Positions 26,166 through 38,977 of a stretch of 51,087 bases of DNA are shown in pieces (the first letter of the stretch is position 1; each line of letters begins with the position of its first letter). Below the pieces are notes generated by a model. It saw only the letters and a list, made by a program, of their open reading frames with translations, searched no databases and was not told where the DNA came from. Origin of the DNA: Myxococcales bacterium (lineage in GTDB: Bacteria; Lernaellota; Lernaellaia; Lernaellales; Lernaellaceae); assembly GCA_012517325.1 (NCBI GenBank), contig JAAYVF010000106.1:1-51087 (forward strand). The letters run 5' to 3'. Position numbers and translations under genes: made by a program.

Positions 26166-27440
26166 ATGAAGATTCTGGTGGTCGGCGGCGGCGGCCGCGA
26201 ACACGCCCTGGTATGGAAAATCGCCCAATCGCCGCTCGTCTCCCGCGTCTACTGCGCGCCCGGCAACGCGGGAACGGCGGCCCTGGCGACCAACGTGCCG
26301 CTCGACGCCGAGAACGTCGACGCGCTCTTCGACTTCGCCAGCCGGGAAGCGATCGACCTGACCGTCGTCGGCCCGGAAGCGGCCCTGGTCAAAGGATTGG
26401 TCGACCGCTTTCGCGCCGCCGGCCTCAAGGCGTTCGGCCCGACCGCCGCGGCGGCCCGGCTCGAAGGCAGCAAGGCCTTCTGCAAGCAAGTGCTCGACGC
26501 CGCCGGGGTTCCCACGGCCGCCTATCGCCGCTTTACCGATGCCGCCGCCGCCAAGGCCTACGTGCGGGAAACCGGCGTGCCGATCGTCGTCAAAGCCGAC
26601 GGCCTCGCGGCCGGCAAGGGCGCCATCGTTTGCCGAACCCGGGTCGATGCCGAAGCAGCCATCGATCAAATCCTGGTGACCCGGGTTTTCGGGTCGGCGG
26701 GGAATCAACTGGTCGTCGAGGAATTCCTCGAGGGCGAGGAAGCCAGCTTTCTCGCGTTCACCGACGGCCAGTCGCTACTGCCGCTGGCCAGCAGCCAGGA
26801 TCACAAAGCGGTCGGCGACGGCGACACCGGCCCCAATACCGGCGGCATGGGCGCGTACAGCCCGGCGCCGGTGGTGACCGAGGCGATTCATCGCCAGGTG
26901 ATGAACGAGGTGATGGTGCCGGTCGTCCGGCAGATGGCCGCGCTGGGCCACCCCTATCAAGGCGTACTGTACGCCGGGTTGATGATCAAGGACGGCTACG
27001 CCAAGGTGCTCGAATTCAACGCGCGTTTCGGCGACCCGGAATGCCAGCCGCTGTTGTACCGCATGAAGAGCGACATCGTGCCCTTGCTGCTGGCATGCGG
27101 CGACGGTACCCTCGGCCGGATGGCCATCGAGTGGGATCAGCGGCCGGCGGTCTGTGTCGTCATGGCCAGTGGCGGCTATCCCGGTTCGTACGAAAAAGGC
27201 AAGGAAATCAGCGGGTTGGACAACATGCCGCCCGACAGTTACGTTTTTCATGCCGGAACCAAGGCGGATGGCGGGCGAGTCCTGTCCAGCGGCGGCCGGG
27301 TTCTGGGGGTGACCGCCAAGGGCGCCGGAATCCGGGAGTCGATCGATTTGGCCTATCGCGCGGTCAAACAGATTTCTTTTGAAAAAGCCTATTACCGGAA
27401 CGATATCGGTCAAAAAGCGCTACGGCGTCCGGAGGAATAA
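26166..27440 (+). CDS. purD: Phosphoribosylamine-glycine ligase
   Basis: The 424-residue protein is a complete PurD of standard length. It starts MKILVVGGGGREHALVWK. It has the ATP-grasp core with KADGLAAGKGA, the catalytic segment with GPNTGGMGAY and the metal-binding EFNARFGDPE. It makes GAR from phosphoribosylamine, glycine and ATP, the second step of purine synthesis. GGAGG precedes the ATG. The stop codon directly abuts the purE start, indicating translational coupling. Confidence 0.97.
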   Translation: MKILVVGGGGREHALVWKIAQSPLVSRVYCAPGNAGTAALATNVPLDAENVDALFDFASREAIDLTVVGPEAALVKGLVDRFRAAGLKAFGPTAAAARLEGSKAFCKQVLDAAGVPTAAYRRFTDAAAAKAYVRETGVPIVVKADGLAAGKGAIVCRTRVDAEAAIDQILVTRVFGSAGNQLVVEEFLEGEEASFLAFTDGQSLLPLASSQDHKAVGDGDTGPNTGGMGAYSPAPVVTEAIHRQVMNEVMVPVVRQMAALGHPYQGVLYAGLMIKDGYAKVLEFNARFGDPECQPLLYRMKSDIVPLLLACGDGTLGRMAIEWDQRPAVCVVMASGGYPGSYEKGKEISGLDNMPPDSYVFHAGTKADGGRVLSSGGRVLGVTAKGAGIRESIDLAYRAVKQISFEKAYYRNDIGQKALRRPEE

Positions 27441-34435: not shown

Positions 34436-35866
34436 ATGAAGAAAGTCTTATTAATCGTCGCCATGCTGCTGACGGTCATCGCCCTGGCCGCCGCCGGCGC
34501 CGTTTATTGGTCGCAACGCCAGGCCGCCGGCCCGCCGGCCGACGACCGGCACCCCAATATCCTGATGGTCAGCATCGACACGTTGCGGGCCGATCACGTC
34601 GGCGCCTACGGTTACCCGAAACCGACGACGCCGCACCTCGACCAAATGGCGGCCGAAGGGGCGCGATTCGCGCGGGCCATTTCGAATTGTCCCTGGACCC
34701 TGCCCAGCCACATCACCATGTTCACCGGCCAGGAAGTCGGGGTGCACGGCGTCCGCACCACCAACAGCGCCCTGTCGCCGTCGGCGCTGACCATCGCGAA
34801 GCTGCTGAAGACCAGCGGCTACCGGACCATGGGCATCGGCAGCGCGCCGTACCTCAAGGCGATTTACGGCAATGCGGTCGGTTTCGACTCGTGGGACGAC
34901 GAACTGGCCCAGGTCAGTTACAAAAACAGCCACGAAGCGGTCACCGCGGAAAAAGCGGTCGACAAGGCGTTGCATGACATCAAGGCGAACAAGGACCGGC
35001 GCTGGTTCGTCTTCCTGCATCTCTGGGACGTTCACTACGATTACGTGCCGCCGCCGCCCTACAACAAAAAATTCGTCGATCCGAGCTATTCCGGTTCGTT
35101 CCCGATGCACAACTGGGAAAAGAATCGCGCCTTCCACGTCGGCATGGACCCGGCGGATTTCGCCTATACCCTCGCGCAGTACGACGGCGAGATCGCCTGG
35201 GTCGACAGCCAATTGGGGCGGTTGCTCGGTCGCCTGCGGGAATGGGGTCTGGATCAACGCACGATCGTCCTGGTCACCGCGGACCACGGCGAGGAGTTTC
35301 TGGAACACGGGCAAAAAGGGCACGGCCACAGCTTGTACGACGAGCTGATCCGCGTTCCCTTGATCGTCAAAGGGCCGCGGATCCCGGCCGGCCGGGTCGT
35401 GGAATGCCCCGTCAGCCTGGTCGATCTGCTGCCGACGATCGCGGAATTGGGCGGTGTGAAAAAGTCCCCCTACGACGGGCCGGGCCGTAGCGTGCTGCCC
35501 CTGTTGGGACAACCCGACGCCTGCGACGCGCAGCGGAACCTGTTCGCCGAAACCAACATGTCGAACCTCGACAAACTCCACAATTACAAGCGCGGCTTCG
35601 AAATGATGCTGGAAAAGGGAACGGTCAAATTCCACAACCGCGTCACCGATCCGTTGCGCGAACTTTTGTTCGACGTCGCCAGCGACCCGGGCGAGCTCAA
35701 CGACCTGCTTGCGGTGGAGCCGGAGCAAGGCGAGGCCTTCAAGACCGAGATGGGCCGCTACCATCACCGCAACAACAATCTGCGGCAGAAAATGCGGCTG
35801 TTGAGCAAGATCCAGATCGACGGCAAGACCCAACAGCAATTGAAAGACCTCGGGTATATCCAATAA
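34436..35866 (+). CDS. Sulfatase-fold (alkaline phosphatase superfamily) enzyme with Thr in the nucleophile position
   Basis: The 476-residue protein has an N-terminal membrane anchor or signal (VLLIVAMLLTVIALAAAGAV). The sulfatase fold then shows NILMVSIDTLRADH (metal Asp), LWDVHYDYVPP and VTADHGEEFLEHGQKGHGH (metal ligands). The usual sulfatase signature C/SxPxR, whose first residue becomes formylglycine, aligns with T88-L-P-S-H. So there is no formylglycine site, although Cys85 lies three residues earlier. Thr is the nucleophile in phosphotransferases such as lipoteichoic acid synthase and phosphoethanolamine transferases. I therefore favour a phospho-ester-acting enzyme over a sulfatase; the substrate is unknown. 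Confidence 0.85.
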   Translation: MKKVLLIVAMLLTVIALAAAGAVYWSQRQAAGPPADDRHPNILMVSIDTLRADHVGAYGYPKPTTPHLDQMAAEGARFARAISNCPWTLPSHITMFTGQEVGVHGVRTTNSALSPSALTIAKLLKTSGYRTMGIGSAPYLKAIYGNAVGFDSWDDELAQVSYKNSHEAVTAEKAVDKALHDIKANKDRRWFVFLHLWDVHYDYVPPPPYNKKFVDPSYSGSFPMHNWEKNRAFHVGMDPADFAYTLAQYDGEIAWVDSQLGRLLGRLREWGLDQRTIVLVTADHGEEFLEHGQKGHGHSLYDELIRVPLIVKGPRIPAGRVVECPVSLVDLLPTIAELGGVKKSPYDGPGRSVLPLLGQPDACDAQRNLFAETNMSNLDKLHNYKRGFEMMLEKGTVKFHNRVTDPLRELLFDVASDPGELNDLLAVEPEQGEAFKTEMGRYHHRNNNLRQKMRLLSKIQIDGKTQQQLKDLGYIQ

Positions 35867-36628: not shown

Positions 36629-36719
36629 CCGGTTTCCTTTTCCCAACCATCTATTGGCATGCGCCCTAAGAAGTGGATATGTTATATTCACGCACGCGGG
36701 ATAAGGGAGACGGGAACCT

Positions 36720-38720
36720 ATGGGCGAGGACAACCATTCGCGTAAGAATGAGTCTAACTCCTGGTTTCGGGCGTTGTTCGACGCGCAACCGGATTGCATT
36801 TTCCAGATGGACGAGCGCGGCGTCATCCTCGATGTCAATTCCTCGGCCTGCCAGCTTTTGGAGTATTCCCATAGGGAATTGGTTGGCGCCAACCTGGCCT
36901 TGATCGTACCCCGCGAAAACCTGGCCGACAGTTACGAAAAAATCGCCCTTCTCCGGCAAGGCGGACAGATCGAACCCTATCGCAAATCGTTGCGCACGCG
37001 CGACGGCCGGTTGATCCCGTTTGAAATCCGCCTCACCACCACGACCGACGAAAGCGGCCGGCTGATCATTCAAAGCACGGCTCGCGATCTGCGGGAACAG
37101 ATGGAAACGCAACGGCGCCTGGAGACCAACGAGCAATTCGTCCAGACGCTGATGCAATCGACCCTCGATATCATCCTGGTCAAGGACGCCGACGGCCGCC
37201 TGATCATGGTCAATCAGGCCTTTCTGGATTTGACGGAACGGCAACTCGAGGAATTGCTCGGCAACACCGAACTGGATTTGTTCAACAACGATCAAAGCCA
37301 ATGGATCATGGAAGAAGACCGCGAAGTCTTGCTGCACGGCAAAACGATGCGGGCGGAAAACCAATTCACGCTGCATAACGGCAAGACGCTGATCATCGAC
37401 TACACCAAGGCGCCGATTCGCGACAAGCAAGGGCATATCATCGGCCTGTTGGCGGTCGGCCGCGACATCACGGCGGAACGATCCATCGCCCAGCAGTTGA
37501 TCCAAGCCCAAAAAATGGAAGCGGTCGGCACGATGGCCGGTGAGATCGCGAACGATTTCAATAAATTTCTGACGAGCATCCAGGACAATCTGACCCTGGC
37601 CGAAAAAAACGCCCAACAGGGTGAATCGGCCCTGCCGCAAATCGAAACGGCGCTCGACGCCGTTAGAACCACCGTGGAACTGACCAACCGCCTGTTGAAT
37701 CTGTCGCGCGCCCAACCGAGTGATTTCACGCGCGTCAACCTGGCGGAAGTAGTCAACGAAATCGTCGGCCTGCTGCGTTCGACGCTGGATCGAAAAGTGC
37801 GAATCTCCGCGACGTTGGATCCGAATCTCTGGCCGGTTCATGCCGACCGGAGTCAGATCTACCAGACCTTGATGAATCTCTGCCTGAACGCCCGCGACGC
37901 CTTGGAAGAGCGATCAGCCTTAGCGGAAAGGGCATCGTACTCGCCGTGGATCGAAATCGCCGTGGAAAACGTCTCCATCCGGCAAGGTTGGGCGAACGAA
38001 TCGCCACGCGGCAAACCGGGCGATTACGTGCGTATCACCGTCTCGGACAACGGCATCGGGATCGACCCGGCGATCACGGAACGGGTATTCGAGCCGTTTT
38101 TCAGCACCAAAACCCGCGAAAACAGCTCCGGATTGGGATTGTCGATGGTCTACGCGATCGTCACCAATCACCACGGTTGGGTAACGGTGGAAAGCGAGCC
38201 GGGCATGGGCTCGGATTTCATCGTGTATTTCCCGCGCGACGAATCGGTAATCGCCAAGGCCGATCCCGCCTTTACCAATCGGCCGACCACCCGGCGTTTC
38301 CAGAAGGTTCTGGTGATCGACGATGAAATCATGGTGCGCGGCGTCATCAAGAGCGTCTTGCTGGAAAACGGCTTCCAGGTCTTCACCGCCGAAAACGGCG
38401 CCAAGGGCTGGGAGACACTACAACGATATAAGGATGAGTTGAATTTGATCATTCTCGACCTGATCATGCCCGAAATGTCGGGCAAGCATTTCGTCGAGAT
38501 GATGCAAAAAGCCGGGCATCGGATTCCGGTGCTCGTCTGCACCGGTTATCCCGGCGACATGGTCATCGACGACTTGCGTTCCCTGGGCGTGACGGAATAC
38601 CTGGGCAAGCCCTTTGCGCCGGTTCAATTATTGGATAAAGTACGGCAAATCCTGAAGCTAAATCCGCCGCCCGCGACGGTCGATTTTTCCTCGGCGGCGG
38701 AAGGAGGAGCGGCGATATGA
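36720..38720 (+). CDS. Hybrid sensor kinase (PAS-PAS-HisKA-HATPase-REC) with His-to-Asn change in the H-box
   Basis: The 666-residue protein has no membrane segments. Two PAS domains span about 15-125 and 138-255 (FQMDERGVILDVN, LVKDADGRLIMVNQ). The HisKA helix reads AVGTMAGEIANDFNKFLT, where the family has GGIAHDFNN. The phospho-acceptor His is replaced by Asn278 (codon AAC at 37551). The ATPase domain is intact: N-box NLCLNARDAL, G1 DNGIGIDP, F-box FEPFFSTK, G2 GLGLSMVYAIV. The C-terminal receiver has DD near its start, Asp580 in ILDLIMPEMSG and the KPF Lys. ATP binding should persist, but His autophosphorylation should not. The stop overlaps the next start (ATGA). Confidence 0.92.
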   Translation: MGEDNHSRKNESNSWFRALFDAQPDCIFQMDERGVILDVNSSACQLLEYSHRELVGANLALIVPRENLADSYEKIALLRQGGQIEPYRKSLRTRDGRLIPFEIRLTTTTDESGRLIIQSTARDLREQMETQRRLETNEQFVQTLMQSTLDIILVKDADGRLIMVNQAFLDLTERQLEELLGNTELDLFNNDQSQWIMEEDREVLLHGKTMRAENQFTLHNGKTLIIDYTKAPIRDKQGHIIGLLAVGRDITAERSIAQQLIQAQKMEAVGTMAGEIANDFNKFLTSIQDNLTLAEKNAQQGESALPQIETALDAVRTTVELTNRLLNLSRAQPSDFTRVNLAEVVNEIVGLLRSTLDRKVRISATLDPNLWPVHADRSQIYQTLMNLCLNARDALEERSALAERASYSPWIEIAVENVSIRQGWANESPRGKPGDYVRITVSDNGIGIDPAITERVFEPFFSTKTRENSSGLGLSMVYAIVTNHHGWVTVESEPGMGSDFIVYFPRDESVIAKADPAFTNRPTTRRFQKVLVIDDEIMVRGVIKSVLLENGFQVFTAENGAKGWETLQRYKDELNLIILDLIMPEMSGKHFVEMMQKAGHRIPVLVCTGYPGDMVIDDLRSLGVTEYLGKPFAPVQLLDKVRQILKLNPPPATVDFSSAAEGGAAI

Positions 38721-38977
38721 GTCTGTTGGGATGGATCATCCTGGGTGGATTGGCCGGCGCGTTGGCCTCGCATCTTTCCGGCCGCGATCAGGGCTGCCTG
38801 ATGAACGTCATTCTCGGGATCATCGGCGCGTTGGTCGGCGGCTTCGTTTTTTCCTTTCTCGGCGGTTCGGGCGTGACCGGCTGCAATTTCTGGAGCCTGG
38901 CGGTGGCGACCGTCGGCGCGTTGATCGTTCTGGCCATCGGCCGGGCGTTCGGCGGCGGCGACCGGTACCATCGTTAA
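38717..38977 (+). CDS. GlsB/YeaQ/YmgE-family (transglycosylase-associated) membrane protein
   Basis: The 86-residue protein has three hydrophobic helices, with GWIILGGLAGALAS at the start and the conserved GCLMNVILGIIGALVGGF. This is the typical layout of the small stress-associated GlsB/YeaQ family, whose molecular role is unclear. GGAGGAG precedes the ATG, which overlaps the kinase stop by 4 bases, so the two are translationally coupled. Confidence 0.9.
   Translation: MSLLGWIILGGLAGALASHLSGRDQGCLMNVILGIIGALVGGFVFSFLGGSGVTGCNFWSLAVATVGALIVLAIGRAFGGGDRYHR

Follow-up and report, generated by a model that had tools for sequence, protein, structure and literature searches.

A putative pseudo-histidine kinase with Asn in place of the phospho-acceptor His and with its ATP-binding and receiver domains retained

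The kinase gene and its domains

The window, a stretch of 51,087 nucleotides, contains a gene for a 666-residue protein with the domain order of a hybrid histidine kinase. The reading frame begins with an ATG. The product is referred to here as the Asn278 protein, after the residue at its phospho-acceptor position. The features of the locus are as follows.

36720–38720, + strand: gene for a putative hybrid pseudo-histidine kinase, 666 aa, PAS-PAS-DHp-CA-REC (ORF, Pfam, syntenic orthologues in two related genomes)
36765–37088, + strand: PAS domain 1, residues 16–123 (Pfam PF00989; AlphaFold pLDDT >90)
37167–37475, + strand: PAS domain 2, residues 150–252 (Pfam PF13426)
37521–37595, + strand: H-box region, residues 268–292, on predicted helix 251–297 (5 of 12 near-invariant positions altered)
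37551–37553, + strand: Asn278, codon AAC, at the phospho-acceptor His position (sequence; aligns with the His of CckA 5idj)
37563–37565, + strand: Lys282, codon AAA, at the position of the +4 Asn of phosphatases (sequence; role of +4 as described in PMC3510030)
37845–38240, + strand: CA (HATPase_c) domain, residues 376–507, with the N, G1, F and core G2 motifs retained (Pfam, 77.9 bits)
38307–38645, + strand: receiver domain (Response_reg), residues 530–642 (Pfam, 74.2 bits)
38457–38459, + strand: receiver Asp580, codon GAC (sequence; invariant in alignment A1)
38717–38977, + strand: small protein of 86 aa, Transgly_assoc (PF04226), a candidate co-expressed partner (ORF, Pfam, neighbour in both orthologous loci)

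The AlphaFold model of the protein, built from a 60-row alignment, has a mean pLDDT of 88 and a pTM of 0.55. Asn278 is located on the long helix 251–297, where confidence is lower (block means 67–83). The closest solved structure by sequence in a PDB search is CckA 5idj (E 5.4e-33).

The GC content at third codon positions of the gene is 0.74, at the low end of the range of five neighbours (0.74–0.83). Long antisense ORFs of 391 and 470 aa are present over the kinase gene (36666–37841, − strand) and over the sulfatase gene (34451–35863, − strand), respectively. These are probably by-products of high third-position GC.

Changes in the H-box, CA domain and receiver

The H-box of the protein is GEIANDFNK (GEIANDFNKFL), with Asn at residue 278 as the first-pass annotation had stated. 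Across 199 aligned rows, in which some kinases of the same genome were entered twice, the acceptor column contains His in 182, a gap in 15, Asn in the present gene only and Val in one (L155, a CheA by eye). No substitute His occurs anywhere in residues 255–345.

The same annotation had described a single change in the H-box. The Asn is real, but five of the 12 near-invariant H-box columns are altered, namely L272M, G275E, H278N, N282K and G289D. Columns with at least 90% conservation across 80 outside relatives were taken as near-invariant, which gave 63 in total. These relatives were the best 80 of 417 found by a scan of genome contigs, with 26–38% identity and with records nearest the window's genome possibly omitted; no orthologue-like sequence was among them. 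H-box departures average 0.21 in the outside relatives (maximum 2) and 0.25 in eight paralogues from the same genome (maximum 1), the 26 loci of that genome with too short a match being left out. None of the ten remaining near-invariant DHp columns is altered. The excess within the H-box of the Asn278 protein, 5 of 12 columns versus 7 of 51 elsewhere, is modestly significant (Fisher p = 0.041).

The Pfam HisKA model (cut-off 26.9 bits) has no match in the Asn278 protein at E up to 1. It matches 59 of the 60 members of alignment A1 at E up to 0.001, the sole exception being the Asn278 protein, and all ten paralogues sampled from 23 in the same genome, at 34.9–47.5 bits. The orthologues in the related genomes G001 and G002 score 33.1 and 21.3 bits, respectively. 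Scores of 27.0, 18.3 and 12.6 bits were obtained for L166, L167 and L165, three kinases of another phylum which also carry Asn at the acceptor position. Two of these fall below the cut-off, so a low HisKA score can accompany Asn even in an otherwise standard motif, and a weak score alone does not imply wider erosion of the DHp domain. Among the four Asn proteins scored, that of the window is the only one in which HisKA is wholly unmatched.

A sequencing or assembly error at 37551 could be suspected in a draft assembly of 134 contigs, with AAC a single base from a His codon. This explanation is extremely improbable: four further near-invariant H-box positions differ, and HisKA is unrecognisable here, though L166 still reaches 27.0 bits with the same Asn.

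The N, G1, F and G2 boxes had been called intact. The core motifs are indeed kept, with N390, D443, G445, G447, G471 and G473 invariant across A1, but 5 of 28 near-invariant CA columns differ, including Gly469 to Ser just ahead of the GLGL core of the G2 box. The maximum among the 80 outside relatives is 3. The orthologues depart at 4 (G001) and 7 (G002) of the 28 columns, so the CA domain of the whole orthogroup has drifted. The HATPase_c score of the Asn278 protein (77.9 bits) compares with 79.8 and 65.6 bits in G001 and G002, and its receiver score (74.2 bits) with 84.9 and 76.3 bits. In the receiver, 2 of 13 near-invariant columns are altered, and Asp580 is intact as annotated. The protein can probably still bind nucleotide and may act as an ATP sensor, as the first-pass annotation had proposed. 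It combines a CA domain and a fused receiver with, by sequence and the AlphaFold model, a kinase fold that has no acceptor residue, as in pseudo-histidine kinases.

Orthologues and the frequency of Asn at the acceptor position

A search of seven genomes of the phylum (E below 1e-75) found the kinase in three, those of the window, G001 and G002, which represent three different genera of one family; the four genomes with no match at this threshold belong to two other families. The G001 and G002 proteins are ~45% identical to the Asn278 protein. The conserved gene order is sulfatase, PP-loop protein, kinase, PF04226 protein, GNAT, xylose-isomerase-like TIM barrel, recN and NAD kinase, of which the PP-loop protein is absent in G001 and the TIM barrel was not found in G002. 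In a 113-row tree, whose bootstrap was not fully settled (correlation 0.989), the three proteins form one clade (100/99), with the window protein and that of G002 paired (100/88), apart from the separate and distant clade of 23 HDFNN-type paralogues from the same genome. The three kinases are orthologues by both synteny and tree. The PF04226 homologue adjoins the kinase in all three genomes. Its start overlaps the kinase stop in the window (ATGA, 38717–38720), and the gap is ~30 nt in G002 and ~350 nt in G001. It is a candidate partner of the kinase, which is a lead and not evidence of interaction.

The H-box of G001 is canonical (GGIAHDFNNLL). That of G002 is GGVAHDFADYL (HDFAD), with His kept, both Asn gone and Asp at +4. 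H-box departures number 3 of 12 in G001 and 2 in G002, despite intact His. The first-pass annotation had raised the question of whether orthologues share the Asn. Both of those found have His, so the Asn is lineage-specific and known from one genome, in which case conservation of the Asn state is not demonstrable; an error is not thereby shown, as Asn is one of five changes. With the sister protein of G002 retaining His within an HDFAD motif, erosion of the H-box across the trio appears stepwise. The path would run from canonical HDFNN (G001) through HDFAD with His (G002) to a state in which His is gone too (the window).

Relaxed selection is the main rival explanation. It holds that kinase function is fading in this lineage and that the gene, not yet truncated, is in early decay without having gained another role. 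A dispensable gene under relaxed selection would give much of the same pattern as a pseudokinase. The restriction of Asn to a single genome, the eroded H-box of the sister G002 and the CA departures here and in G002, both above the maximum of the outside relatives, are as this explanation predicts. It is nevertheless considered unlikely. The earlier statement that the gene is not decaying was borne out with regard to gross decay, as the frame is open, codon-position GC is near that of the neighbours, the CA and REC scores are near those of the canonical orthologue, and the position beside the same genes is conserved.

The genome of the window has 74 HATPase_c matches, made up of the window gene, 70 loci and 3 weak matches. 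The acceptor check covered the 70 loci and left out the weak matches: 62 align with His, L102 has His by eye, L112 is ambiguous, and the remaining six, judged by eye, are either without this region or ATPases of another kind. In L112 (G000:C27, around 26367–26687, − strand), which adjoins a sigma-54-type regulator (by eye), the HATPase frame has no readable H-box upstream; a frameshifted kinase or an assembly error is possible. The kinase ORFs L009 and L058 have an AHNFNN H-box, with Asn in place of the acidic residue after His. The same genome has five matches to HPt domains. Four of them, assigned by contigs and frame lengths equal to those of loci seen by eye, share their frames with kinases that are CheA-like or large hybrids, and the fifth lies in a 654-aa frame.

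A DNA pattern scan for the Asn version of the motif, G(I/V/M)A-N-DFN(N/K), gave no match in ten genomes of outside relatives. Three matches were found in 395 genomes from the phylum of G007 (Geomonas), where the His version has 2727 matches in 321 genomes, i.e. the Asn version amounts to ~0.1%. The three matches (L165, L166 and L167) sit in kinase-like ORFs of HDFNN type with Asn in an otherwise standard ANDFNN H-box, a feature they share with the gene at 36720–38720; they differ from it in that all three retain the +4 Asn. L167 (423–2465, − strand), a REC-PAS-ANDFNN-REC kinase, has F and G2 boxes altered by eye (FERSDTAFPGRDGTRLEMST), with HATPase_c still at 60.4 bits; this is possibly a more complete pseudokinase. 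A published survey reports that His is absent from 0.9% of HisKA domains (722 of 76,471; PMC12632262). A literature search returned no title naming a natural Asn-for-His kinase, though such reports may still exist. Kinase-like proteins that lack the acceptor are uncommon but already known.

Possible modes of action

The first-pass annotation had suggested that the protein may act as a phosphatase. Without His, such a protein would donate no phosphate but could remove it from a receiver. It has been reported that His is dispensable for the phosphatase activity of HisKA kinases (PMC3510030, PMC12632262). The CrdS variant H371A still dephosphorylates its regulator, with a half-life of 2.6 min compared to 0.7 for wild type and 53.5 for the regulator alone (PMC3510030). 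According to the same source, four HisKA kinases, CrdS among them, need the Asn/Thr at +4 for this activity; CrdS N375A, N375Q and N375D are all without phosphatase activity, and N375D is also without kinase activity, which further requires the acidic residue following His (PMC3510030). CrdS is an HExxN kinase, and its rules are transferred here to a kinase of HDFNN type. The +4 residue is Lys282 in the window protein and Asp in G002, which argues against the suggested activity, and family frequencies have been taken to argue against phosphatase activity as a general role of pseudo-histidine kinases (PMC12632262). A dedicated phosphatase is therefore highly improbable. By analogy with CrdS, the Asn278 protein is unlikely to dephosphorylate a receiver, and the G002 orthologue may be enzymatically impaired too. 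With its acceptor lost and no other His nearby, the window protein would also be unable to autophosphorylate or to feed its own receiver.

A heterodimer, also raised by the first-pass annotation, is an alternative. In it the CA domain would transfer phosphate in trans to the His of a partner kinase, and one subunit would supply the receiver of the other. His-to-Asn subunits of NtrB reportedly complement in trans; H139N was not mentioned in any of the papers listed by a literature search. The retained CA motifs and the HDFNN-type paralogues of this genome, at least 23 in number, are compatible with such pairing. These paralogues form a separate and distant clade, however, and G275E, N282K and G289D go beyond mere loss of the acceptor, which leaves the heterodimer quite improbable.

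Three known systems resemble the protein in part. CckA has PAS, DHp, CA and REC domains in a like layout, and the His of CckA 5idj aligns with Asn278. It differs in being a bifunctional, active kinase (title of 5idj). The NCBIfam CckA models score the Asn278 protein at 250.8 and 234.9, versus a cut-off of 1000.

DivL of Caulobacter reportedly shows neither kinase nor phosphatase activity and exerts its effect through binding of DivK~P (PMC4211667). Both DivL and the Asn278 protein are PAS-DHp-CA proteins without the acceptor His. The two differ in the residue at the His site, which is Tyr in DivL and Asn here, and in the receiver fused to the C-terminus of the Asn278 protein, which DivL is not known to have.

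NifL of Azotobacter vinelandii is described as a PAS-PAS-H-GHKL protein without kinase activity; it responds to redox state and ADP and blocks NifA by binding to it directly (PMC9866876, PMC8063818). A NifL structure, 9qq6, is the first Foldseek match of the Asn278 model by E-value, but with a TM-score of only 0.34 and an rmsd of 16.8, so little beyond domain order is common to the two; Foldseek TM-scores were low and were not used for class membership. The NCBIfam NifL model TIGR02938 gives 81.6 versus a cut-off of 242.45, and a Pfam analysis of 14 neighbouring proteins in the window, three of which had no family, revealed no nifA. As the score lies below the cut-off for NifL, as for CckA, the protein is classed no more narrowly than as a pseudo-histidine kinase. 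Another route has been reported for laboratory-evolved ChrS, in which a frameshifted CA domain acts through a paralogue (PMC9491836).

With the acceptor His and the residue of the reverse reaction both lost, signalling probably takes place by binding of partners and not by enzyme chemistry. The preferred reading, held with moderate confidence, is that of a pseudo-histidine kinase specific to this lineage, laid out like CckA and acting as a non-enzymatic binding protein regulated through its PAS domains, nucleotide and receiver, in a mode like that of DivL and NifL. The conformation of the non-enzymatic dimer would be set jointly by its PAS ligands, by the nucleotide it holds and by the state of its receiver, which may be phosphorylated in trans or simply bound, and a partner protein would read the result. 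A further proposal is that the orthogroup is being inverted, with kinase and phosphatase residues lost in turn and the receiver and ATP site retained, so that the receiver now takes the input, by phosphorylation from another kinase, and what was the catalytic core delivers the output; this is rather unlikely.

In the gene at 36720–38720, a hybrid kinase has naturally lost the residues for kinase and phosphatase activity, with its neighbours and other domains retained. To call it a ‘hybrid sensor histidine kinase’ would be wrong as regards mechanism. The trio of canonical, apparently intermediate and Asn278 forms, in three genera of one family, is apparently stepwise and worth specialist attention. 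With it, the conversion of a kinase into a signalling protein without enzymatic activity could be tested directly, as could the question of whether the fused receiver then takes its input from outside.
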